This document shows positions 1,744 to 57,034 of a stretch of DNA of 64,000 nt, piece by piece. The position numbers and the translations under genes are program-made. The number at the start of each line of letters is the position of its first letter. Position 1 is the first letter of the stretch. The notes below the pieces were generated by a model. That model was not told the DNA's origin and ran no database searches. It saw only the letters and a list, made by a program, of their open reading frames with translations. The stretch comes from Chloranthus sessilifolius (lineage: Eukaryota > Streptophyta > Magnoliopsida > Chloranthales > Chloranthaceae), in NCBI GenBank assembly GCA_021018995.1, contig CM037589.1, positions 6,897,001 through 6,961,000 of the forward strand. The letters run 5' to 3'.

Positions 1744-1932
1744 TGACAGGGACGCCGACATTGTAGACATTGGATACAGACTGTTTTGTGTGTACCGGCG
1801 TCGGAAGAAGCAAAACAGAAACGGAGATCGAAACCCGACTTAAAGAATCAGCCTGCTAGAGCAATGCCGGTCAATCGATCGACATCTGGTATTCGATCGA
1901 TTGACTGCGGCCTGTGAGGGAATATTTATGGT

Positions 1933-1972
<40 letters not shown>

Positions 1973-2870
1973 TCAATCGATCAAATTCCAAGAGTCGATC
2001 GATTGACTGTGCTGTGACCAGAGAACAAATTATATATATAAGTCAATCGATCGAATTCCATGTGTCAATCGATTGACTGGCGCGAACATGGGTTTTTCTA
2101 CATAATTCGAAGTTGAGTTTCTAGGGGCATACTTGTCTTTTAGTATTTGTTTTAGGGTTTTATTATGTTTCAGAGGCCTCCGATATAAGGTCTTTTAAAA
2201 AATATAATGTAATCAGTTGATTATTTAATGAAAAGAGCTTTTGCTTGTGTGCTTGAGATGAGCCTCCATGAAGATTGAATCTTCGCTTCCCGAGAAGGGT
2301 TTGGTGTGAAGTCAAGGGTGTGAAGCCCAAAATCTATCTTCTATCTATCTCTTGATTTTATTTTATTTTTCTCTGCTTGTTTTGATCCCATAAACTTCAA
2401 ATCCAGCCGTTATCTTTTCCCAAAATTCCTAAATCTGCACCATTGATTCGAACCAATCTCATAATCCTAAAATCAGACCATCCAACCTTTAAATATCCTG
2501 AAATTTATAAATCCTAGATCCCATCTAAGTCCCCAAATCGATCCGATTCAAGCCCAAACTTCATTCGAGCCATCAAACCAGCCCGAATCAGAACCCTTAG
2601 AGGACTTGTGATTCCATTATTGACCCACGAGCGGCGCCCTAATCTGGAAAAACTAGAGTTCTACCTCTAGACTGATTTACACCGCGAATCTAAAGGATCT
2701 AGCGCACAAACCGAACCCTACTCGAATCTAGCGCGATTTTTCAATGGAAAACTATGAAACCCGAAGGTATCTGCATTATTTTCAGATTTATTGTTTAATT
2801 AATTTAATTTAATTTCGACAATTAATTAAATCATAGCATTCACGTAGTTTAGGGTCCTTGTTCCGCATCA
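1744..2870 (+). repeat. element A 5' LTR
   Basis: Runs from TGACAGGGACGCC to CCGCATCA. The first ~100 bases repeat the end of pol. U3 then carries paired CGATCGA palindromes at about 1877-1910, 1975-2010 and 2040-2080, around a long TA microsatellite (1936-1971). It ends four bases before the primer site. Confidence 0.9.
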
Positions 2871-2874
2871 GTTT

Positions 2875-2887
2875 TGGTATCAAAACC
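2875..2887 (+). other. tRNA-Met primer binding site of A
   Basis: TGGTATCAAAACC, four bases after the 5' LTR, is a slightly altered initiator tRNA-Met complement. Confidence 0.85.
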
Positions 2888-3064
2888 TAATTTCTAGGTT
2901 AGGGCATATTTGTGTGACATTTAATTCCATTGCATTTTAATTTTCATTGCGTCTTATTTCAGTTCTTGTCAATGTGTGCACACCTAGTGTTTGATAAAAT
3001 TTCTCTTTCGTTGTGGTTTATATTTGCATGCCCATTTAGAACTCATACTAGTAGTTGTGGTCAC

Positions 3065-4226
3065 CATGAACATGAATGAGATTTTCGATGTTCTTAACGG
3101 TATGAGAGCTGAATTAAAAGCGATCAATGATCGAAAGGCTGCCATGAAGACAGCCTAAAGGAACCTTTAAACTTCCAATGATAGGTTGTTAGACCGAGTC
3201 AACCGGTTAAACGAGGATGACGAGTACCTCGAACTACACCGTGAGCGTAATGGTCTACGTTTCGAACAAAATGGCTTCCAACATAATCGAAACCGGAATC
3301 ATAGGATGGATCATCATTGAGATGACTACGACCCAGATGGGAAACTCCTTAAAAACGTCTGAGTTGAGTTCCCAACCTTCGATGGAAGCTCAGACCCTAA
3401 ACTCTTCCTCGATTGGTTATCCGACATGGACCAGCACTTTGAGTGGTTTGGTATGAGCAATGAGCGGTGCGTCAAGCTCGCCAAGATGAAACTCATCAGC
3501 CAAACCCGACTCTTTTGGGTCAACGTTGAGCGCATCAGGATGAATGCGAGATGTGCTCCCATTACCTGTTGGGAGGACCTGAAGGAGCGACTTACAGAGA
3601 AGTACGTTCTTTCCTCATACTAGCATCATCTCCTCGATCAATAGCAAAATCTACGCCAAGGTAGTATACTCGTAGTGGATTACATTGGCAAATTTGAAGA
3701 ATTCATGATGAGAGCCAAAGTGTCCGAAGGCCCCCAAGTCACTCTATCCAGATTTCGCACCGGATTGAGGTTTGACTTGCAAAAAGAGTTAGTCTCTCAC
3801 CCCGTTGAGACTCTTGCCAAATGTTACACCATCGTTCAAGACCTTGAACGATATTTGAAAATGACGGTGGTGAGGCGATCTGAGCCTCATATCGGTCAAC
3901 CTCGTACCGGCGAGGTGAGTAGTGCTGGAAACCCACCCACCAAACTCACACAATCCACATCCGATGTTCGGTTTGACAAAGGAAAGGGTGTGGTAGGAGA
4001 ATCCTCAAAGGGCGGTTCTCACATCAAGTGTTACAACTGTCAAGGGTTGGGACACTTTGCCGCCCAATGCCCTAAGAGAAACCCGCAAAGGAATCTCTAC
4101 GTCGAGGGAGAAGATAACGAGGATGACAGAATTTTAATAGAAGAGATCTTTGAGCCGGATGCCACACCTAGTGATGAAGAGGGTGATGTCAGTGGTCGTG
4201 CTCTTGCACAGCCTCAACGAGATTAA
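3065..4226 (+). pseudogene. element A gag (fossil)
   Basis: Starts with MNMNEIFDVLNGMRAEL, continues through a capsid-like region (WLSDMDQHFEWF, then FWVNVERIRMNARC) and ends with a CCHC zinc knuckle CYNCQGLGHFAAQCP near 4029-4072 and an acidic tail. This matches plant Ty3/gypsy gag, which packages the RNA. Broken fossil. Confidence 0.85.
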
Positions 4227-4298
4227 AAGGAGGATTGGTGTAGGGAAAATATCTTCCACACCTTCGCCAAATGCGGCGAGAAGAGCTATAAGATCATC

Positions 4299-4610
4299 AT
4301 GGACAACAAAAGTTGTATCAATGTGGTGTCAACACACACCATAACCCGCTTAGGGCTTACACTCGAAGCCCACCCGAGGCCATACAAAGTTGCATGGGTT
4401 GACTCTTCCTCCATTCCCGTGTCTCAGAGGTGTCACGCACCTGTTCAGCTAGGTTCATATTTGGGCACCTTGTGGTGCGATGTGGGATCAATGGATGTGG
4501 GCCACATCATCTTAGGGAGGCCATGGCTTTATGACTTGAACGTGACTATTTTTGGTCGATCTAACATTTATACGTTCATACATAATAGCAAGAAGATAAC
4601 TATTAACCCT
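4299..4610 (+). pseudogene. element A retropepsin-like protease region (fossil)
   Basis: Follows gag. Reads SCINVVSTHTITRLGL and later IILGRPWLYDLNVTIFGRSN, which match the start and the ILGRPWL end block of retroviral-type aspartic proteases in plant gypsy elements. Broken fossil. Confidence 0.75.
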
Positions 4611-4919: not shown

Positions 4920-6115
4920 TTGAGCACGCCGAATTGACTGGGCAAGTTAATGAACTCCTTCAGAAAGGGTTCATCCAAGAGAGTCTAAGCTCGTGTGCAG
5001 TACCCGCCCTACTCACTCCTAAGAAAGATGGTACATGGCGCATGTGTGTGGATAGCCGTGCGATCAACAAGATTACGGTTAAATATCGATTTCTCATACC
5101 AAGGCTAGACGATATGCTTGATATGATGGTTGGCGCCTCTATTAAAAGTGTCTACCATCAAGTTTGCATTCGCCCTGATGATGAGTGGAAAACCGCCTTC
5201 AAGACCAATGATGGTCTTTATGAGTGGATGGCCATGCCTTTTGGGTTATCGAATGCCCCGAGCACATTCATGAGGTTCATGACGCAAGTGTTGAGGCCGT
5301 TTCTCGGCAAGTTCCTTGTTGTATACTTTGACGACATCTTGATTTACAGTTATGACAGAGAACAACACATTATCCACCTAAAGTTGGTTTGTGAAACCTT
5401 GAAGGGAGAAAGGTTAGATGCGAATCTCAAGAAATGCACATTCATGTAACAATCCGTTGTATTCTTGGGATTCATTATCTCGGCTGATGGGATGGTTGCG
5501 GACCCTGAGAAGGTTAAAAATCCATTATGGAATGGCCCGAGCCTAGGAATATTCATGATGTCTGTAGCTTCCATAGATTGGCCATATTCTATCGTCACTT
5601 CATCCGGAATTTTAGCACCATTATGGCTCCTATTACCGATTGTATGAAAAAATGAGAGTTTCAATGGAGTAAAGCTGCGACGAGGGTCTTTGCCAAAATA
5701 AAAGAGAAAATGAGTACTGCACCTGTCATGCACCTACCTGACTTTTCTGAAGTCTTTGAAGTAGCATGTGACGCGTCGGGTGTGGGGATAGGTGGAGTGC
5801 TTAGCCAAGAGGGCTACCAAGTGGCCTATTTCAGTGAGAAACTTAATGAAGCAAAGCAAAAATACTCCACCTATGACAAGGAGTTTTATGCGGTGATCCA
5901 ATCTCTTTGGTATTAGAAGCATTACCTTAGACCGCAAGAATTCGTGTTGTTTTCTAACCATGAAGCCTTACGCTTCCTTGCTTCACAGAAAAAGTTGAAC
6001 ACAAGGCACATAAAGTGGGTTGAGTATCTTCAAGGGTTCACATTCGTGTTAAAGCATAAGGCGGGTGCCGAGAACAAGGCAGCCGATGCACTTAGTCGTC
6101 GAGTGGCGACTTTGC
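4920..6115 (+). pseudogene. element A reverse transcriptase and RNase H region (fossil)
   Basis: Reverse transcriptase motifs in order: [42 protein letters not shown] and the polymerase box YFDDILIYS near 5320-5350. RNase H follows from about 5750 ([20 protein letters not shown], then [14 protein letters not shown]) and ends at ADALSRR. The order is that of Ty3/gypsy. Broken fossil. Confidence 0.85.
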
Positions 6116-6311
6116 AATCCATGAGCACCGAGGTCATCGGATTTGAGCAGTTAAAGCAAGACTATCCCGAGTGCCCAGATTTCAGGGTGGAATACACTGC
6201 TCTCCGTAAAAATTCAAACATCATTAACTCCAAGTATACCCTACAAGACAAGTATCCATTCAAAGGAACTCGCCTATGCATCCCTCGCACCTCATTGCGT
6301 GACTTTCTCAT

Positions 6312-7500
6312 TTGGGAGTTCCATGCCGGATAGCTTGCCAAACATTTCGGGCGCAACAAGACCATTACACTAGTTGAGGATAAGTATTATTGGCCTAGCC
6401 TTATGAGAGATGTTTCACGAGTCGTAAAACAATGTCGTACATGCCAAGTAGCCAAACAAAATAAACAAAATATTGGTTTGTATACCCCGTTACCCGTGCT
6501 ACACACCCCGTGGCAAGATATCTCTATGGATTTCGTGCTCGGACTTCCCAAGACCCAACAGAAGCACAATTCTATTTTTGTCGTGGACCACTTCTCTAAG
6601 ATGGCCCATTTCATCCCTTGCTTTAAAACCTCTGATGCGGCTCACGTAGCCAAATTATTTTTCGGGGAGGTTGTGCGTCTCCATGGGTTACCCAAAACCA
6701 TTGTGTCGGATCGGGACATGAAATTCACCAATTACTTATGGAAAACTTTATGGCACATGATGGGTACCATGCTTCAGTTTTCTTCGGCCTATCATCCTCA
6801 AACCGATGGCCAAACGGAAGTCACCAATAGGAGCTTAGGTAATCTCCTTCCTTATCTAGTCTTTAATCATATTAGGACTTGGGATTCTACATTACCAATA
6901 GCCGAGTTTACATACAACAATTCTGTCAATAGGTCCCTAGGCATGAGTCCGTTTGAGGTCGTGCATGGACATAGGCCAAGGACACCATTAGATTTAATCC
7001 CCATATCTTCATATTATCGAGTATCTGAGTCTGCAGACGCATTTGCAAAACACATTCATAACTTGCACGCCGAAATTAGACAAATAATTAATTCAAGCAA
7101 TGAACATTACAAGATAACTGCGGATGCGCATAGGAGCTTCAAAGAATTCCAAGTGGGAGATTATGTGATGGTTCGGGTTAGGCCTGAATGATTCCTCGCG
7201 GTGCTGGGCCTTTTAGAATTGTGGCAAGGAGCAGTCCTAATGCGTATGTTTTCGAACTTCCGCCCCACAACCTCTACCATTTCCTTCCCCATGCAGGCAG
7301 AGGAGAGATGAAATCGAAGGGATACTTGATGATTTTGTGGTATCAACCCATGGTGGAGGGTTTCAGAAGTGCTTAGTTAAGTGGATGGGAAAGCCGGACT
7401 CCGAGAACACGTGGTTAACTGAAGACGAGGTGCGACACCTGGATCCCGACGTGCTTGATCGCTATCACCACGCCGCTTCATCGGGGATAAAGGCTTTTCG
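6312..7500 (+). pseudogene. element A integrase and chromodomain (fossil)
   Basis: Zinc-finger half (CRTCQVAKQNKQN), then the DDE catalytic core: [21 protein letters not shown] and [18 protein letters not shown] block follows (the GPY/F module of gypsy integrases). The last part, from about 7345, is a chromodomain of the form CLVKWMGKPDSENTW followed by LDPDVLDRYH. Chromodomains of this group steer integration toward particular chromatin. Pol reading continues into the 3' LTR. Broken fossil. Confidence 0.85.
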
Positions 7501-7512
7501 GCTAGGGAGAAT
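7499..7512 (+). other. polypurine tract of A
   Basis: GGCTAGGGAGAAT lies directly before the 3' LTR and is purine-rich, as expected for the plus-strand primer. It lies inside the pol reading frame, as in elements C and D. Confidence 0.7.
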
Positions 7513-7695
7513 TGACAGGGATGCCGACATTGTAGACATTGGATACGGACCGTTTCGCGTGTACCGACGTCGAAAGAAGCGAAACGAAGAAGCGAAACTC
7601 GAAAAGAATCGACTTAAGAATCGAGTTACGGTACCAATCGATCGACATCTGGTATTCGATCGATTGACTGCGGCCTGTGAGGGAATATTTCTAGC

Positions 7696-7755
<60 letters not shown>

Positions 7756-8557
7756 TCAATCGATCAAATTCCATGTGTCGATCGATTGACTGGCGCGAAC
7801 ATGGGTTTTTTTACAATTCGTAGTTGAGTTTCTAGGGGCATACCTGTTTTGTAGTATTTGTTTTAGGGTTTTCGTTATGTTTTAAAGGCCTCATAGATAA
7901 GGTCTTTTAAAAAGAATAATGTAATCAGTTGATTATTGAATGAAAAGAGCTTTTGCTTGTGTGTTTGAGATGAGCCTCCATGAAGATTGAATCTTCGCTT
8001 CCCGAGAATCGTTTGGTGTGAAGCCAAGGGTGTGAAGCCCAAAATCTATCTCTTGATTTTACTTTATTTTTCTTTGCTTGTTTTGATCCCATAAACTTCA
8101 AATCCAGCCAAAATTCCTAAATCTGCACCATTGATTTGAACCAATCTCAAAATCCTAAAATCAGCCATCCAACCTTTAAATGCCCCGAAGTTTATAAATC
8201 CTAGATCCCATCTAAGTCCCCGAATCGATCCAATTCAAGCCTAAACTTCATCCGAGCCATCAAACCAACCCGAATCAGAACCTTTAGAGGACTTGTGATT
8301 CCATCATTGACCCACGAGCGTCGCCCTAATATGGAAAAGCTAGAGTTCTACCTCTAGACCGATCTACACCGCGAATCTAACGGATCTAGCGCATGGACCA
8401 GACCCTACTCAAATCTAGCACGATTTTTCAATGGAAAACTACGAAACTCGATGGTATCCGTATTATTTTCAAATTTATTGTTTAATTAATTTAGTTTAAT
8501 TTCGGCAATTAATTAAATCGTAGCATTCACGTAGTTTAGGGTCCTTGTCCCGCATCA
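7513..8557 (+). repeat. element A 3' LTR
   Basis: Same ends as the 5' LTR. The first part still encodes the tail of pol (GYGPFRVYRRRKKR). The TA microsatellite (7698-7754) is longer here. The CGATCGA palindromes flank it. Confidence 0.9.
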
Positions 8558-8562
8558 AAATA

Positions 8563-8905
8563 GCTTACAAAATTATGCTTTATAGTAATTACAAATGAGA
8601 ATACCATAAAATAGAAATGTACTATGTTACCCAAAAGGGTAACTTACATTTGACATAAAAGACAAAGAAAAGAAAGGATAAAAGGGACAATCTCGACATG
8701 TGACTTGCTCGAGCGACTTTTGGTTCTTGCTCAAGCAGGAATCTTCACGAGGTCGCTCGAGCAACTTGAGGCCGAAAATTTTGGCCTTGATTTCTGGCAC
8801 GCTCTCGCTCGAGTGACCAAAACACGAAAGTTTTGGTCGAGTTTCTGAAGCGCCTCGCTCTAGCGAACCTCATTTTCACTTGAGCGAGCCTGGGCAGAGG
8901 CTCTC
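8563..8905 (-). repeat. E1 5' LTR, piece 2 (U3)
   Basis: The continuation of the E1 LTR after element A, still minus strand. It has a TATA-like ACTATAAAGC (minus) near 8578-8588. From about 8705 to 8890 there are repeated CTCGAGCGA / CGCTCGAGT palindromic motifs, the U3 signature of this family. It is cut at 8905 by element B. Confidence 0.7.
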
Positions 8906-14681: not shown

Positions 14682-15636
14682 TGACGCGGGACGGGAACCC
14701 TAAAATGCATGAATATGATGTTTTGTGATTTTGCCGAAATTAAATAAGATTAAATCAAGCTTAATCTCAAAACTATCTTAAATACCTTAGGGTTCAAAGA
14801 ATTCAGGTTGGTAGATCACGCGAGATCCAGTTAGGGTCCAGTCCGATGCAGAAGTACAATTAGATTTGAAGCAAGATCAGCTTAGAGATAGAACTCTAGC
14901 TTTTTCCAGGCTTGGGCGTTCGTCTTCGATCCGACGTAGATTCGCAGGCTCTAACTAGGGCTTTGGAAATAGGTGTATGGTTTTGTAATGGGCTTATGGT
15001 TTGATTTATGGCTTAGAAAAGGGTTTTGGGCTCTGTTTGATTTAGGGTTCAAAAGGGGTTTAGGATTTTGGGATCGAAATCAATAGATTGAGATTTTAAA
15101 ATTTAAATCAACACAGAGAAAGGTTAAGAAAACAGAGATAGATAATAGAGAAGATAACAAAGATTGTTTTTGGGAATCACTCCCTTGACCTCACACCAAA
15201 CCCATCTTAGGCAATGAATATTCAAGCATAAAAGCATTCAAAATATTCAATAACTAATTAACAAGTCTTTACAAGCCTCAATATATAGGCCATCAATAAT
15301 TAAATTTGTAATAAAGAGTCCTAATAACAATAAAATACTATAAAGGAAAGTTTTCGCAACAAAAAACTCAAAATTAGAAGTCCTGTCACAACGTCTACGG
15401 ACGTCCGTAGTGCCCCACAGACATCCGTGACCTACAGACAGTGAGGGGGCAAAATCACGGACGTCCGTCATTGTTTCACGGACGTCCATCACTGTTCATC
15501 ACGGACGTCCGTCACTATTCACGGACGTCCGTCACTGTTCATGTGAACAGTAACTTTTTTTTTTTTTTTTTTGTTCTGAAGTTGAAATTCTGTTGCGGTT
15601 CAACTTCAATACTTTCGATCTTGACGTTCCCCGTCA
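14682..15636 (-). repeat. element B 5' LTR
   Basis: 955 bases, TGACGCGGG to CCCCGTCA (plus reading), with ACGGACGTCC palindromes at about 15390-15540 and a T tract at 15554-15571. Confidence 0.92.
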
Positions 15637-21327: not shown

Positions 21328-22010
21328 CTAAGTTAACTCGGCATGCTCAACCGGATTCAACCTATAGTGGGGCAGGTTTGGCAAGGTGGATCCGGGAACC
21401 AAGTCTATTGCGTGTTGGATATCACACAAAGGAGGGAGTTCGTTTGGTAAGTTTTCAGGGAAGACATCCGTGAACTTTTTCAAGATCGGCTCAACCTCCT
21501 TAGGGTATTCGCTCACCGACTCGGGAGCACTCTCAACGGTGACGACTACGTACACCCCTCTCATCAAACGACGCTTTCTCGAATTCTGAAGAGCTCAGAG
21601 TATTGATGGATTTTGAAGTCTCGCCCTTCTCGATTTTGTTGATCGATGTTGTTTTGGGAGGCAAAGGGTGTAAAGTAATCTTCTTGTCCTTATGCATGAA
21701 CATGCATATGTTTGATCGATCATAAAAGGTCACGTCCATGTCATAGAGCCACATCCTTCACAAAATGATATAACCCACATCCATCGACACCACATCACAC
21801 CATAAGGTGTCCGAATAAGAACCTAACTGAATCAGTACATGACACCTTTTCGACACAAGAATGGATGAAAAGTCGACCTATGCAACTTTATAAGGTCTCG
21901 GGTGGGCTTCGGGTGCAAGCCCCAAGCGGCGTATGGCTTGAGTTGACACTACATTAGTGCAACTACCGCTATCCACGGTGACCTTACAACTCTTTTCACC
22001 AAATCTAGTA
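21328..22010 (-). pseudogene. element C protease and linker (fossil)
   Basis: VDSGSCTNVVSTQAIRRLGL gives the aspartic protease start. The linker with FTDVFPENLPNELPP precedes the reverse transcriptase. Confidence 0.8.
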
Positions 22011-30264: not shown

Positions 30265-31241
30265 TGACAGGGACGTCGAGTACGTGGACATCGGTTTTGG
30301 ACCACATCGCTTCTACCGGTGTCGAAAGAAGCGAAGAGGGAGCCCGAGTACTACAGCGTCAGGAGAAAAAGGAGACAAAAATGTCAACAGATGACGGACG
30401 TCCGTCTCATCTCAACGGACGTCCTTAGTTTCAGCCGCTCACTGTTTAGTGGGGACGGACGTCCGTAGTGCCCGCCCCACGGACATCTGTGGTTTTGTGT
30501 CCCTAGGTCACTGACGTCCGTGACCTCGTGACCTCAAGGACGGGCATCCGTGGACGTCGTGCCGCCAGCGACGGGATTTTCTAATTTTGGCGAAATTTTC
30601 CTTTTCTAGTTTTTATTATTATTAGGACTCTTCATTTCAAAGTTTACTTTGGTGGCCTATATAAGGAGGCTTGTAAATACTTTTTTTATTAGTTTATTAA
30701 ATATTTTGAATGCATTATTGCTTGAATATTCTTCTTCCCGAGATGGGTTTGGTGTGAGGCCAAGGGAGTGATTCCTCTTTTCTATTCTCTTACTTCCCCA
30801 TTATCTTCATTTAATCCATCTACCTTTTCTGAACCCAAATCTATTAGTTTCTTCAATCCCAAAACCCCAAATCTCTTTTGAAACCCTAAACCAATCAGAG
30901 CCATAAACCAAAACCAAAACCAGACCATAAGCCTATCACAAACCATAAACCTATTTCCAAAACCCTAGTGAGAGCCTGTGAATCAACATCGGATCGAAGG
31001 CAAACGCCCAAGCCTGGAAAAGCTAGAGTTTTATTTCTAGGTCCGATCCCGCCTCAAATCTAACAGTACTTGTGCATCGGACTGGACCCTAGCCGGATCT
31101 CGCGTAATCTACCCATCAAAATTCTTCAATGCCTAAGGTATCGAGTTAATTTTGGTATTAAGCTTGATTTAATTTTATTTAATTTCGGCAAAATTGAATC
31201 AAAATCATATTCACGCATTTTAGGGTTACCGTCCCGCGTCA
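30265..31241 (+). repeat. element D 3' LTR
   Basis: TGACAGGGACGTCGAG to CCCGCGTCA. The start encodes YVDIGFGPHRFYRCRKKR, the end of pol. GACGTCCGT palindromes at 30395-30555; TATA-like CCTATATAAGGAGG near 30655-30668. Confidence 0.9.
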
Positions 31242-37588: not shown

Positions 37589-38307
37589 GGGAAATTTATC
37601 GGATCAACCTTGTCAGATATACCTTTTTCGTCAGAGACCCTATATTTTCACTTTTATCACCAGCTTTTAGCCAAGCAATTTTCAGCTAGCACAAAAAGTT
37701 TGAAATACCCCTTCTGACACTTTTTTTTGTTCTTGTAATAGTCCTACAATTCTGAACAAGAACCTGACTGTTTCAATATGCATGCTCGACACAAAAATCG
37801 AGACATATTTAAAAAATTTAAATTAATATTATTAGAAATAATATTAATCCACATGTAGGTGAAGTCATATGTGACTTCTCGCTTAAATCCAAGTCTTGTA
37901 GGACGTTGGTGGAGCGTGCTACGCTATAGCATTAGTATGAGCACTTCACACCGGAGCCAAGCTTAGGGAGTAAACTGAAATATCAGAGATATTTCAGTCC
38001 CTTAGCTTATAAGAGAAGAAATGAGACCTAGAATGTTTATTTTCCTTCTTCTTCTGCTTGTTCTGATAAACCTAAACCTAAGCTAAGAGATGATCGTTTG
38101 AATTGCTTTTTCGGAAAATCGTATGTGAGAGAATCTAGATTAGCGATTACTTGAATAGAGACGGTGAAATTGACGTTAGTACATCGAATCTTCTCAGCGG
38201 AGGTGTGCTATTGCTACGTGTCGAATCGAAGCCAATAATCTCCTTGTCTGAGTCATACCGGCGATAAATTCAGAGAGTCGGATCCGAAACCCTCTTTGGA
38301 TCGCGTT

Positions 38308-40143
38308 TGTCGAGACCCCGAAATGGCCCAAATAGATGTGAGCCTTTGCATTTAAGAAGGGCAAGATTAACGCCTCTTATATTGTGTTTATATGTTTGTA
38401 GAGATTGTTAGAAACCATTAATAAAAAAGGGGTTAAATGGGTAAAATAGGTGACCGCCATTAATGACAGAGAAACTGTCATTATTGATCGATCAATCCTG
38501 AAGATTGATCGATCAATACTGGGTTGATCGATCAATGAGAAGCATTGATCGATCAATTTGTATTAAAATAAAGAGGGAACAATAGAGTTAGTTTTCTGGA
38601 AGTTCAGTGCTCGAGAGGCATTGATCGATCAATTATGAGGATTGAACGATCAGAGAAAGAGTGATCGGTAAAGATTGATCAATCAATAAGGGTATTGATC
38701 GATCAATAAGGACATTGATCGATCAATCTGTATAAAGTGAGAATGATAACAGGAAGAGGGAAATTTAAAATTTTAGGTTGGTAATCGATTAATGAGACAG
38801 ATTGATCGATCAAATAAGTTAGTGATCGATCAATTTTCCTCTGTCAAGTGTGAAGAGTAAGGAACTATTGATCGATCAATTAAAGCATTGATCGATCAAT
38901 GAGAGGAGGTGATCGATCAATAGAGGCTATTGATCGATCAATTAGCCTTGTTACTTGTGAGTATTTGGAGGGGATTGATCGGTCAATGAGGTCATTGATC
39001 GATCAAGGAGGAGGATTGATCGATCAATCAAGGTGTTGATCGATCAATCACCCATGCTTTTGATATGTTTTGGTTTTGTAAATTAAGTGCTACTGAACAC
39101 TGCGACAGTTAATGTTCTGGCATCCCTGACACCTAGTGTACTATATTTATGATCTAGGATCAGACCTTGACGCTCTGAAAAGCTTTGGATTTGCTTAGAA
39201 AGATGTCTGATCTAAGGTAGGGGAAATCCAACCTAAAATATTTTTTATTATGATTTCATGATTCTTTCATATCTGCATCCTGATTTCTGTTTTCACAAAC
39301 AATCTTACATATCATAAATCTCTTATTTGTTTCCTGTTTTGATATTTTGAAACCTGCTCATGATTTCTGCTATCTGATTTGTGAGGTCTATGTGTGTATG
39401 TGATTTAATGATTTAATCAGATGATCCCCACCGACTCGGCGGTATATCCTTGCCTGGAACACTTGTGCATCTACTTTGTTAATCTCTCGGCACAATTGCA
39501 CCCCATAGATGAGGCATTGTTGCACCCTGAAATTGTTCATGTGAACAATGATTGGTTGGGGTTTCCTATCGGTAGATTCCTGATTACTCCGTGTTATATA
39601 TTCACAGGAGTTTCTTAAGTTAGAAAAATATATAGAAATTAAGTCACCGATTATAATCATGCATAGCATTTGTTTCTTGTTTAAATGCTCAGTAAGTGAT
39701 CTGATTTTGCCCTGTCTGCACGTTCTGATTTGATTTTCTGCTTTGAGGTATCATACCTTGCATATTCAATACATTTTTAGTTGGAATTATTCTATTGAGC
39801 TTAGACGTAGCTCACCCTGTTTTCTATAATATTTATAGATTCTGAGGCTAGAGCTCCGACCGAGAGCGATTCGATTACGATCGATCCAGAAATTTGAGGG
39901 CGAGGCCGAGCGTCTAGCACGATTTTTATCCATAGCCTGGGTATTTTAGTCTTTTTTTTAGAATTTTTGTATGATACTCTAGATCATCGTGTGTCTGGTG
40001 GCCACTTTCTGTATTTATTATCTATAGATGTTTTTATTTGTATTATTATACATTCTATAAGAATCACTATCAGGAACCATTGTTTGGGTGATGGATGTCC
40101 ATCACCAGTTATTCTTCTTGGTTCCTTTTTGAGGATGTATATT

Positions 40144-40205
<62 letters not shown>

Positions 40206-40342
40206 ACTCAATCTGCCACTGCTGAACAGTGTCTGCTCCGATTTCTGCTAGATGAGCAGACACTTTGTGATTTATCCCGGAATCATCCAGAGCATGATCC
40301 TGATGGCACAAATTTTCGGGCGCAGAAATTCGGGCTGTCACA
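38308..40342. mobile_element. large LTR (probable solo LTR, 2.0 kb) inside the Mutator-like element
   Basis: Begins TGTCGAGACCCCGAAATGG and ends CAGAAATTCGGGCTGTCACA, the TG...CA ends and CCCGAAAT/ATTCGGG partial inversion typical of plant gypsy LTRs. No coding region, and no clear target duplication (flanks GCGTT and GTTCT). It contains the TGATCGATCA array (38483-39053) and a TA microsatellite (40147-40202). An LTR is the best reading, not proven. Confidence 0.6.
38483..39053. repeat. array of ~20 ATTGATCGATCAAT palindromes
   Basis: About 20 copies, some 16 with an intact TGATCGATCA core, in clusters whose nearest neighbours are often 19-22 bases apart. Sequence between copies is A/G-rich and not conserved. 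Both strands read the same, so the array has no direction. Confidence 0.92.
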
Positions 40343-40411
40343 GTTCTACATGGTTTAAAATTTTAAATATTTGCACTTTTCTATATTTATGCAGTGTGGA
40401 ATGCGATTTAT

Positions 40412-47389: not shown

Positions 47390-49824
47390 TGTGACGACCC
47401 GACTTTTCTAATCCCTAAGGTATAGGAAAGGCCGGTTCGCCAACCTATCGAATAAACGATAAGCCGGACAAACAGGGCACATATCAGAGTAAAGCGCAAT
47501 AAATATCCATAGCTAAAATAAATGCGGAAGCAATTAAAAGTAAAGAACCACCGATGATGGCCGACCATCATCGAAACATGGCTCATAACAGAAATCAACG
47601 TCAAATATAAAACTATGGTATCCAACTAAAATGGGCCCACAAATTCAAGTCTAACTCTCACCACAAATAAGAAAATCAGTAAGTTCTATACTGGGAAAAA
47701 CTCCTCAGGAGGAACCTCAAGCTCTTCCTCAGCACGCGTAGTCGATCGTCTCACGATCGAATAGCCACGTCAATACGAACTCAGCGGCGTATAGTGAGTG
47801 AGCTAACCAACAAAGCTCGATGAAGAAAGACATCTACGGCATTTTACTTTAACTAACATGATTTCAAAACAAATATCGAATATAGCTTGTCAAACATATA
47901 AGCGATAATAAAGCTGAATTTAGGTGCGGAAATCATATGTAAGATTTATTTCTAAATGTGTGAAAACAGTTTCAAGAATGTATCAAAGGTGTTTTGATGT
48001 CTTAGTTTCTCTAACTTCTATGCAAAGTTCGAATTCATGACTTAATCCTCAACTTAAAATACCTCCCGAGTAAACTATATCTCGAGAGCGAAATATAGCC
48101 GATGGGAACCCCTACCTACCATCGCTGCTCATAAACCCTTTTTCGGATGCAACAAGCCCTCGTAATGAGGGAAACTTGTGCGAAGTTGTTCAGAATTTTG
48201 AGGGTCGTCAGTCAATCATAAAACAAATGCGATACTAATATAATCGGATGGAAGTCTCTTATACATACAGTTCGGTTCTTGATTTCAGATCTTGAGCTTA
48301 AGCGATTCAGTTTGAGATTGGTAGATTTAGATTTTTAGTCATTCATATCAATTTCAATTTACAGATGTGATTTCAATGGCATATGCAAGTTCAAAGATTT
48401 TAATTCAAAATATCCATGCGAATTAAAATAAAATACTGTAAAGATGAGATTCTCCTACCTAAAACTCGGAGTTATGCGAAGTCAAGCAAGGTCCTATTGA
48501 TGGCCTCTCGCCCTCAATCTACATCACAATATACATTCATGCATTAAGATAAACTCTAATTACTAATAATATAGACCTATTTAAGCGTTTCCTCAAAAAC
48601 AAGTCAAAACAGGCAAGTTGCGCCAATCCTAAAATTTGACGTAACATTCTCATATTTTTTTGACTATCAAGACGATTGATTCATGTGTTGGTCAAAACAT
48701 AAAAGTTGTAGATTGTTATATTAGCTTTCCAACGCAAAACGAATCGTCTCAATCAGAGTTTGAGATAAAAAGTTATGACTAAAATACTAAGGCAATACCG
48801 GAGTTCGGTGATACCTCGCTCGAGCGATGATAATAGCTCACTCGAGCGATTTGACGTAACATTCTCATATTTTTTTGACCATCAAGATGATTGATTCATG
48901 AGTTTGTCAAAACATGAAAGTTGTAGATTTTTCTATTAGCTTTCCAACAAAAAAAGAATCATCTTAATCGGAGTTCGGGATAAAACGTTATGACTAAAAT
49001 ACTAAGGTAATATCGGAGTTCGGTGATACCTCGCTCGAGCGATGATAATAGCTCGCTCGAGCGATTTGACGTAATATTCTCATATTTTTTTAACTATCAA
49101 GACGATTGATTCATGAGTTGGTCAAAACATGAAAGTTGTAGATTTTTCTATTAGCTTTTCCAACGCAAAAAGAATCGTCTTAATCATAGTTCAGAATAAA
49201 AAGTTATGACTAAAATACTAAGGCAATGTCGGAGTTCGGTGATACTTTGCTCGAGCGATGATAAAAACCGACGGGTTTCCTCAACGATTCGCGCCGCGAT
49301 CGATCCCACGAGTTCACAGAGACAACTCCAACACGCCCCCAATGATCTCAACCTCTCCCAATAGCCAACTACGAATCCAAGGTTGATTCAAGTTCTTTCT
49401 AAGGTTTAAGTGTTTTCAACAAAGAGGGTTCTAGAGAAGGAGGTTTTCTAAACCGATCTCCTACGATGATTGAAAAAGAGAGAAGAAGGAGTTTCACACG
49501 GTTGGGTAACTATCCTCTCTTAACAAAACCTAGTATAATACGAGAATGCAATTCCTTCTTATAATAGGATTGCTCACAAAGTAAAACACACACACACATC
49601 TTATGTATTATACACTTCTAATTTTAAAACTCAAGTCCAGTGTTGAGCGGCTACACCGAGGTCGGTGCACAACTTTCGCACGAGGGTCCAAATGGGCTCT
49701 AAATTAAAATCTGTCTGCACAATCACATCTAGATAAAAATCTAAAACAAATGGTGACGTCGGTTGCCGAGCCAAATACACACACAGGGTCAGTCTAACTC
49801 GGGTTCAAAATACGGGTCTTTACA
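47390..49824. mobile_element. solo LTR, 2.4 kb, gypsy-like
   Basis: TGTGACGACCCGAC to CGGGTCTTTACA with exact target duplications TCTGG (47385-47389 and 49825-49829). The inverted GACCCG/CGGGTC ends are common in plant gypsy LTRs. No coding region inside. Contains three 215-bp tandem units ending in CTCGAGCGA palindromes. Inserted just past the LINE tail. Confidence 0.85.
48634..49262. repeat. three tandem 215-bp units with CTCGAGCGA palindromes
   Basis: Units start at 48634, 48849 and 49064 (ATTTGACGTAA...). Each carries AAAGTTGTAGATT, TTAGCTTT(T)CCAAC and AGTTATGACTAAAATAC-like blocks and ends in CTCGCTCGAGCGATGATAA. The third is slightly shorter. Confidence 0.92.

Positions 49825-56983: not shown

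Positions 56984-57034
<51 letters not shown>

Follow-up and report, generated by a model that had tools for sequence, protein, structure and literature searches.

Arrays of regularly spaced palindromes in the LTRs of Chloranthus sessilifolius retrotransposons, candidate docking sites for a dimeric DNA-binding protein

A solo LTR with a palindrome array

The DNA analysed here, called the window throughout, is a stretch of 64,000 nucleotides from Chloranthus sessilifolius (C6:6897001-6961000), and the genome that was searched amounts to 2.17 Gb in 32 contigs. The window contains a solo LTR which carries, at LTR positions 750-1315, an array of short palindromes. The features of this locus are listed in window coordinates, with the strand where one applies.

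37729..37733, + strand: 5' target-site duplication GTTCT, matching 40343-40347; the point where homology to other copies begins
37734..40342, + strand: solo LTR of 2609 bp, TGTAATAG...GGGCTGTCACA, with homologous copies elsewhere that have their own 5-bp duplications
38483..39048: palindrome array, 21 ATTGATCGATCAAT sites, with 16 exact 10-mer cores and 10 exact 14-mers
38483..38557: block 1, four sites, 21, 19 and 21 bp apart
38620..38727: block 2, six sites, of which three carry changes (a single base in one case)
38780..38834: block 3, three sites, the core of the first being TAATCGATTA
38867..38942: block 4, four sites, 20, 21 and 21 bp apart
38974..39048: block 5, four sites, offset by 106-107 bp from block 4, of which it is a diverged duplicate
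40343..40347, + strand: 3' target-site duplication GTTCT, matching 37729-37733

The limits of the LTR follow from the GTTCT repeats flanking 37734-40342 and from those of homology. In flank alignments, the four copies that reach that far begin to match at 37734-37754, and the match ends at about 40342. Copies elsewhere have duplications of their own, namely agcct (L006), gtgcc (L007), tagag (L010), atatc (L005) and ttatg (L014); no 5-bp duplication was found for L008 or for the two L012 copies, and the L009 copy is without a 3' end. The preliminary description had placed the LTR at 38308-40342, a start that these flanks and homology limits show to be wrong. On the array itself it was accurate in both coordinates and counts, having given about 20 palindromes and 16 exact cores.

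There are 1,665 genomic junctions of this LTR end with a primer binding site (GGGCTGTCACA-N0-6-TGGTATCAGAGC), while the reversed control gives 0. We take the LTR to be of the Tekay-like chromovirus type, a clade name assigned from features of the LTR and of the end of pol. Among the 20 matches listed for relatives of the LTR inside the window, the TA run alone matches. This perfect run of 27.5 units lies near the LTR 3' end (40147-40201), and runs resembling it are present at 7699-7753 and 56989-57031. Elsewhere, the insertion site of a TGATCGATCA solo LTR in L007 (3980-6688) lies next to or within a cluster of a different palindrome, TGGGTACCCA (L007:3823-3947 and 6720-6729), and L012 holds two LTRs of the family in opposite orientation, at 2389-4400 (minus) and 5897-7864 (plus), whose similar arrays lie about 1.5 kb apart.

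The exact copies of TGATCGATCA in the array fall at 38485-39046. The window total is 17, the remaining copy being isolated at 21713. The number expected in the whole window is 0.07, and none of 100 dinucleotide shuffles reached 17. Together with the 30,732 exact 14-mers (ATTGATCGATCAAT) in the genome, as against 1 for the reversed control, these shuffles rule out a chance origin of the array. With near copies included (at most three changes in the 10-mer core and at most five in the 14-mer), the 21 sites form five blocks of 4, 6, 3, 4 and 4. Gaps within blocks are 19-21 bp, with the single exception of one of 14 bp, and the steps from block to block, start to start, are 76, 66, 46 and 45 bp. 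In a self-comparison of the window, blocks 4 and 5 align at 77% over 165 columns at an offset of 107 bp. They are a diverged duplicate, so that longer units account for part of the growth of the array. The CpG observed/expected ratio is 1.26 in the array versus 0.80 in the remaining LTR, largely because the palindrome itself contains CG.

Conservation, spacing and recurrence of the arrays

Site conservation was assessed on 176 sites from ten arrays, the window array together with nine from loci surrounding the first 14-mer matches on C1; two of ten targeted loci, L011 (no cluster) and L013 (only ATCGATCGAT), were left out of this count. Bases 3-13 of the 14-mer (TGATCGATCAA) are each conserved in 94-99% of the sites, which were picked by their likeness to the palindrome. 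The second base (T) is conserved in 84%, the first in 73% and the last in 68%, and flanks outside the 14-mer hold less than 0.7 bits per position. Because it was the palindrome that led to the ten arrays, this conservation is partly conditioned. The central CpG is the pair of core bases most often changed, yet it is kept in about nine of ten sites. Gaps of 19-21 bp make up 135 of the 166 (11 of 19 bp, 59 of 20 bp and 65 of 21 bp).

Full-length alignment of seven LTRs (the start of L008 being set by estimate) gives 21 pairwise comparisons. The palindrome 12-mers are 90-98% identical, a figure favoured by the definition of sites through palindrome likeness, as compared with 32-76% for the spacers within blocks; the longer gaps are 41-88% identical and the remaining LTR 56-81%. 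Columns with a site in one copy only number 0-16 among the window, L006, L007, L008 and L014, 12 for L005 versus L010, and 98-167 when the first group is compared with the second. The block layout is common to the copies, and their spacers share a purine-rich bias. The spacers are not conserved along with the palindromes, as they would be in a simple tandem repeat, and this difference in identity rules out plain expansion of a longer unit as the whole story, although such expansion holds in part for blocks 4 and 5. The preliminary description had argued that the palindrome, rather than some longer unit, is what selection or copying acts on; the identities and the gap lengths bear this out, as does the 22-bp preference of a sister family given below, with the duplicated blocks as the part that does not fit.

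The arrangement is a real and strongly conserved genome-wide architecture. Pairs of TTGATCGATCAA with 8-9 bases between them (a period of 20-21 bp) number 23,724 in the genome, and pairs of TCAATCGATTGA, the palindrome of a sister family, with exactly 10 bases between them (a 22-bp period) number 18,872; the control is 0 for both. When the ten next longer spacings (N11-20) are pooled, they yield 1,402 TCAATCGATTGA pairs. A search of viral contigs for the spaced pair returned 0. In 39 loci covering 337 kb, adjacent exact gaps below 40 bp are of 22 bp in 12 of 12 cases for TCAATCGATTGA and in 3 of 3 for CGCTCGAGCG. Those of TTGATCGATCAA measure 19 (7 cases), 20 (29), 21 (24) and 23 bp (2), and 13 of the adjacent 10-mer gaps in these loci are of 23 bp. 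Spacing thus differs between families, and also within one (gaps of 19, 20 and 23 bp in L042, see below), so that there is no single helical rule.

Neighbouring sites are to some extent correlated. For the outermost base of the 14-mer, covariation between neighbours is seen in 94 of 155 pairs versus 75.6 in shuffles (71 of 115 versus 56.3 when distinct pairs are taken); across the dyad of the site itself there is none (104 of 206 versus 101.4). This covariation is carried by the 20-bp gaps (30 of 44 versus 20.8) and is absent at 21-bp gaps (29 of 52 versus 28.4). Further out, own-dyad bases exceed the shuffles at two places (55 of 206 versus 42.3 and 54 of 206 versus 36.5), which suggests that shared descent may contribute to the covariation. 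At the spacer ends of the first-listed 22-bp pairs, the counts are 21 of 42 versus 14.5 and 24 of 42 versus 19.0, and at the second spacer base of 23-bp pairs 18 of 23 versus 10.7; the remaining spacer positions of the 22-bp and 23-bp pairs are near or below shuffles. Changes in the core are compensated in a neighbour, in the five families, in 5 of 57 cases (4.2 in shuffles), 3 of 19 (1.2), 8 of 14 (6.4), 2 of 24 (2.9) and 8 of 90 (13.8), none of which is significant. Compensation across the own dyad is rare, at 4 of 39 for the TGATCGATCA palindrome, 0 of 45 for TCAATCGATTGA, and 9 of 26, 6 of 48 and 6 of 94.

The feature recurs across the genome with several different palindromes, and constitutes a class rather than a single case. 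Clusters, for which a palindromic 10-mer had to occur three or more times within 1 kb, are present in 5 of 15 stretches taken at round positions (130 kb), with CGCTCGAGCG, CAATCGATTG (twice), CACCTAGGTG and CGATTAATCG. The controls for these stretches are 1 of 15 for mirror words and 0 of 300 for base shuffles. Twelve further loci were taken by the LTR-primer binding site junction alone. Within 1.5 kb, TGATCGATCA arrays are found in two of them (L035 and L036), CAATCGATTG in one and CGATTAATCG in three, always at the edge of the stretch, with two copies in each of two loci and a single copy in the remaining one. In the other six, the visible LTR (1.5 kb) shows no repeated palindrome. An identical LTR end can thus go with different palindromes, or with none in view. 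The preliminary description would have counted family members lacking the array against its reading, a question that the two TGATCGATCA arrays among these twelve loci answer by half.

Within the window, related arrangements are present in three other elements:

1871..2076: element A, 5' LTR (LTR pair from self-comparison), three pairs 22 bp apart
7634..7789: element A, 3' LTR, two pairs 22 bp apart, both deviating by one base from exact inversion
15396..15533: element B, of another chromovirus family, six CACGGACGTCCGTG-like sites (1-2 changes) with gaps of 20, 40, 21, 23 and 20 bp
30393..30552: element D, repeat end, palindromes of the CACGGACGTCCGTG-like family (1-3 changes)

One of the three pairs in the 5' LTR of element A is an exact reverse-complement pair (TCAATCGATCGA-N10-TCGATCGATTGA, 1871-1904), and the other two are one base off. 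Element B has a chromodomain ORF. At L040:530-560, the units CGATCAATCG and CGATTGATCG lie 21 bp apart and are exact reverse complements of each other without each being palindromic. Palindromes resembling TCGCTCGAGCGA are found at window 8705-8887, at window 48816-49258 (inside 215-bp tandem repeats) and at L015:1966-2405, with pairs 22 bp apart at the latter two places. Long arrays of CACCTAGGTG (about TTAGGCACCTAGGTGCCTAA), mostly with a period of 29-30 bp, occupy L023:3198-4136 and L005:2102-2500.

A full-length relative and its extra ORF

The two junction loci with TGATCGATCA arrays, L035 and L036, lead to a more complete element, which is contained on the minus strand of L042, the stretch beside L035. 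Its order is LTR end, primer binding site, gag, pieces of protease, RT, RNase H and integrase, SH3_Tf2-1 and chromodomain, a second array, an extra ORF, a purine tract and the 3' LTR. The domains above cutoff are Retrotrans_gag, RVT_1, Integrase_H2C2 and Chromo (PF00385), and the match to the integrase core is below cutoff. The 3' LTR starts at about 1782 and has its own array at about 618-1024, with short gaps of 19, 20 and 23 bp. Two features of this element are of particular concern here:

L042:3636-3793, minus strand: second TGATCGATCA array, six sites spaced by 23, 23, 23, 52 and 23 bp, between pol and the extra ORF
L042:2962-3573, 1980-2510 and, weakly, 2707-2931, minus strand: extra ORF in pieces, in the same sense as the element, between pol and the 3' LTR

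The second array lies directly upstream of the extra ORF. This ORF has no match in Pfam or NCBIfam, and a PDB search with it gave a single chance-level match. A homologue is present in L009 (E 8e-19), the two being 32% identical over 182 residues, and the L009 ORF has a sub-threshold match to Transposase_32 (E 0.0041). Further relatives are found in L021 and, weakly, in L022 (phmmer E 0.002 against L009), which brings the ORF-bearing elements seen to four (L042, L009, L021 and L022). Searches of Pfam, NCBIfam and PDB recognised no DNA-binding domain in the extra ORFs, and no family named VANC is among their Pfam matches.

The L022 element, whose integrase rve domain is above cutoff, presumably belongs to another lineage, Athila-like. 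It contains CAATCGATTG pairs (L022:7393-7886), nearly all exactly 22 bp apart, between the integrase and the extra ORF (6697-7206, minus strand). Another array in L022 precedes the ORF at 5101-5535. There is no palindrome cluster in L021, and the only one in L009 lies in an oppositely oriented LTR. These two results count against a tight link between the palindromes and the extra ORF.

A proposed docking array and its alternatives

On the evidence of the sequence architecture, the array in this Tekay-like Ty3/gypsy chromovirus LTR probably serves as a docking platform with many sites, to which a sequence-specific DNA-binding protein would attach as a dimer. The preliminary description had put forward dense sites of a dimeric protein, besides a template for hairpins, and the former is also the reading that we prefer. 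Sites that are kept, spacer letters that are free, a spacer length that is held and perfect twofold symmetry together point to protein dimers about two turns apart. In the proposed mechanism, each palindrome would take one dimer, and neighbouring sites about two helical turns apart would bring the dimers to one side of the DNA, where pairwise contacts between them could form. With many sites side by side, recruitment would be strong, cooperative and element-specific, and such recruitment would turn the LTR promoter on or keep it unsilenced. Different families of elements would use different palindromes, and the layout would expand by duplication, the sites being kept while the spacers drift. 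The binding protein may be a host transcription factor or the product of the element's own extra ORF. Protein binding, the dimeric state and the activating or anti-silencing effect are all what we infer from these regularities.

Two alternatives dispense with a bound protein. Neighbouring palindromes might pair as stems of 12-14 bp with loops of 6-11 nt, in RNA or in single-stranded DNA, and serve in RNA dimerisation or processing, or give rise to small RNA. As RNA, the array folds much more stably than shuffles do (z -14.8), as any palindrome array would. The covariation of the outermost base and of some spacer edges between neighbours fits hairpins as well as a dimer of dimers, and the exact inverted pairs of non-palindromic units in element A and L040 are also in keeping with hairpins. 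However, covariation is flat at 21-bp gaps and at the other spacer bases, shared descent may contribute to it, and compensation of core changes between neighbours does not exceed shuffles in any of the five families. Nor does a hairpin need a loop of exactly 10, the spacing at which TCAATCGATTGA pairs outnumber those of the ten next longer spacings so strongly. A spacer whose length is held and whose letters are free fits the geometry of a protein better than RNA loops, and we consider hairpins an improbable explanation. The other alternative is a neutral product, in which a unit of about 20 bp that happened to hold a palindrome was duplicated in tandem and homogenised by conversion. The duplicate of blocks 4 and 5 at 107 bp, the shared block layout and the purine-rich spacers would all be accounted for, but the palindromes are kept while the spacers of the same units drift, which disfavours this origin, and clusters are found in 5 of 15 stretches versus 1 of 15 for mirror words. 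In addition, the top recurrent word with drifting flanks is, or overlaps, a palindrome in the window and in L022, though not in L018, L023 and L024. A neutral product is, in our judgement, very improbable.

The docking explanation itself comes in two versions. If the palindrome is the site of an ordinary dimeric host factor, the array would be an enhancer of the host transcription-factor type, comparable to the short motifs repeated in the U3 of Tnt1 or Tto1 and to the heat-shock elements of ONSEN. This accords with dense, conserved dimer sites in an LTR and makes an element-encoded protein unnecessary, which would suit solo LTRs. It also accords with the likeness that we assume between CAATCGATTG and the HD-ZIP site CAATNATTG, and with the presence in CACCTAGGTG of what we take to be the MYB core TAGGTG. 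It is weakened by the presence of at least six unlike palindromes in one genome, which would require several unrelated factors to share the same array format; our impression is that each palindrome belongs to one element family. A host factor is a serious possibility, if still short of probable. In the version which we regard as possible but rather doubtful, the extra ORF encodes a family-specific, VANC-like regulator, which would recognise the palindromes of the element's own LTR and those preceding the ORF itself, and would counter silencing, the palindrome and the protein diverging together. VANC proteins of Arabidopsis bind short tandem motifs in non-coding parts of VANDAL elements, and these motifs differ between related families (PMC5735166, PMC10398659). 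Likewise, among the 12 LTRs with the same end, the motif array differs between related families (TGATCGATCA, CAATCGATTG and CGATTAATCG). L042 has the TGATCGATCA palindrome at two places, inside the LTR and immediately before the extra ORF, and L022, of another lineage and with another palindrome, likewise has an array between integrase and a related ORF. The fast divergence of the extra ORFs (between L042 and L009) and the weak Transposase_32 match of L009 are further points in favour. Set against an element-encoded regulator are the DNA-binding domain that the searches of the extra ORFs did not recognise, the lack of a cluster in L021, the location of the only L009 cluster in an oppositely oriented LTR, the small number of ORF-bearing elements (four), and the fact that reported VANC motifs are not palindromic.

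The likeness to VANDAL and VANC extends to the repetition of short motifs outside the coding parts of a transposon, to an additional fast-evolving protein encoded by the element and to arrays that expand and contract. The differences are that VANDALs are DNA transposons, whereas the elements described here are Ty3/gypsy retrotransposons whose arrays are candidate binding sites, and that VANC motifs such as YAGTATTAY, unlike the present arrays, are not palindromic. The words palindrome and spacing are absent from the main text of PMC5735166. In Retand elements, tandem arrays and antisense TRP28 ORFs lie between pol and the 3' LTR, and both DNA binding and a role in regulation have been suggested (PMC11963269). 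The extra ORF beside repeat arrays in this position is a shared feature; Retand, however, is non-chromoviral and its ORF is antisense, whereas the ORF described here is in the sense orientation and arrays are also found inside the LTR. Sunflower Athila elements have a 3' aORF with Transposase_32 and sunflower Tekay elements a 5' aORF (PMC11728184). They resemble the present case in encoding extra proteins with predicted nuclear localisation, in belonging to the same two lineages and in the similarity to Transposase_32; the Tekay aORF differs in lying at the 5' end instead of between pol and the 3' LTR. Neither PMC11963269 nor PMC11728184 contains the word palindromic. For further extra ORFs, we direct the reader to the lists in two reviews (PMC7264820, PMC6317226).

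Arrays of short regulatory motifs in transposons are thus already known. Among LTR retrotransposons, the BII boxes of Tnt1, the 13-bp repeat of Tto1 and the heat-shock elements of ONSEN are reportedly short repeated LTR motifs that serve transcriptional activation. They are alike in offering several copies of a short cis element in the LTR; to our knowledge, they have few copies, no perfect 14-bp palindromes and no genome-wide format of multiple palindromes at a preferred spacing. Of 36 papers containing one of the palindrome strings, 30 were listed, and no title among these concerned LTR arrays. The top literature results likewise contained no description of palindrome arrays in LTRs, which is weak evidence of absence because subscription journals are poorly covered. 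What we did not find described is that several retrotransposon families in one genome each have their own perfect palindrome, repeated many times at a preferred spacing.

The arrays provide a handle, available from sequence, on the escape of LTR retrotransposons from silencing in large plant genomes and on the role of extra ORFs. The wider class of palindromes and the array beside an extra ORF make up the more interesting part of the finding, and the type of palindrome is predicted to follow the type of extra ORF. A broader proposal, which we put forward as speculative and consider unlikely as it stands, is that two lineages, chromovirus and Athila-like, may each have evolved regulators of their own, consisting of a fast-evolving extra ORF and a palindrome private to each family, the palindrome being repeated both within the LTR and ahead of the ORF at a constant spacing of two turns. 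If this were true, the genome would harbour many mutually exclusive codes for self-activation or anti-silencing, and an arms race like that of VANC would be under way in retrotransposons over a sizeable part of a 2.2-Gb genome.
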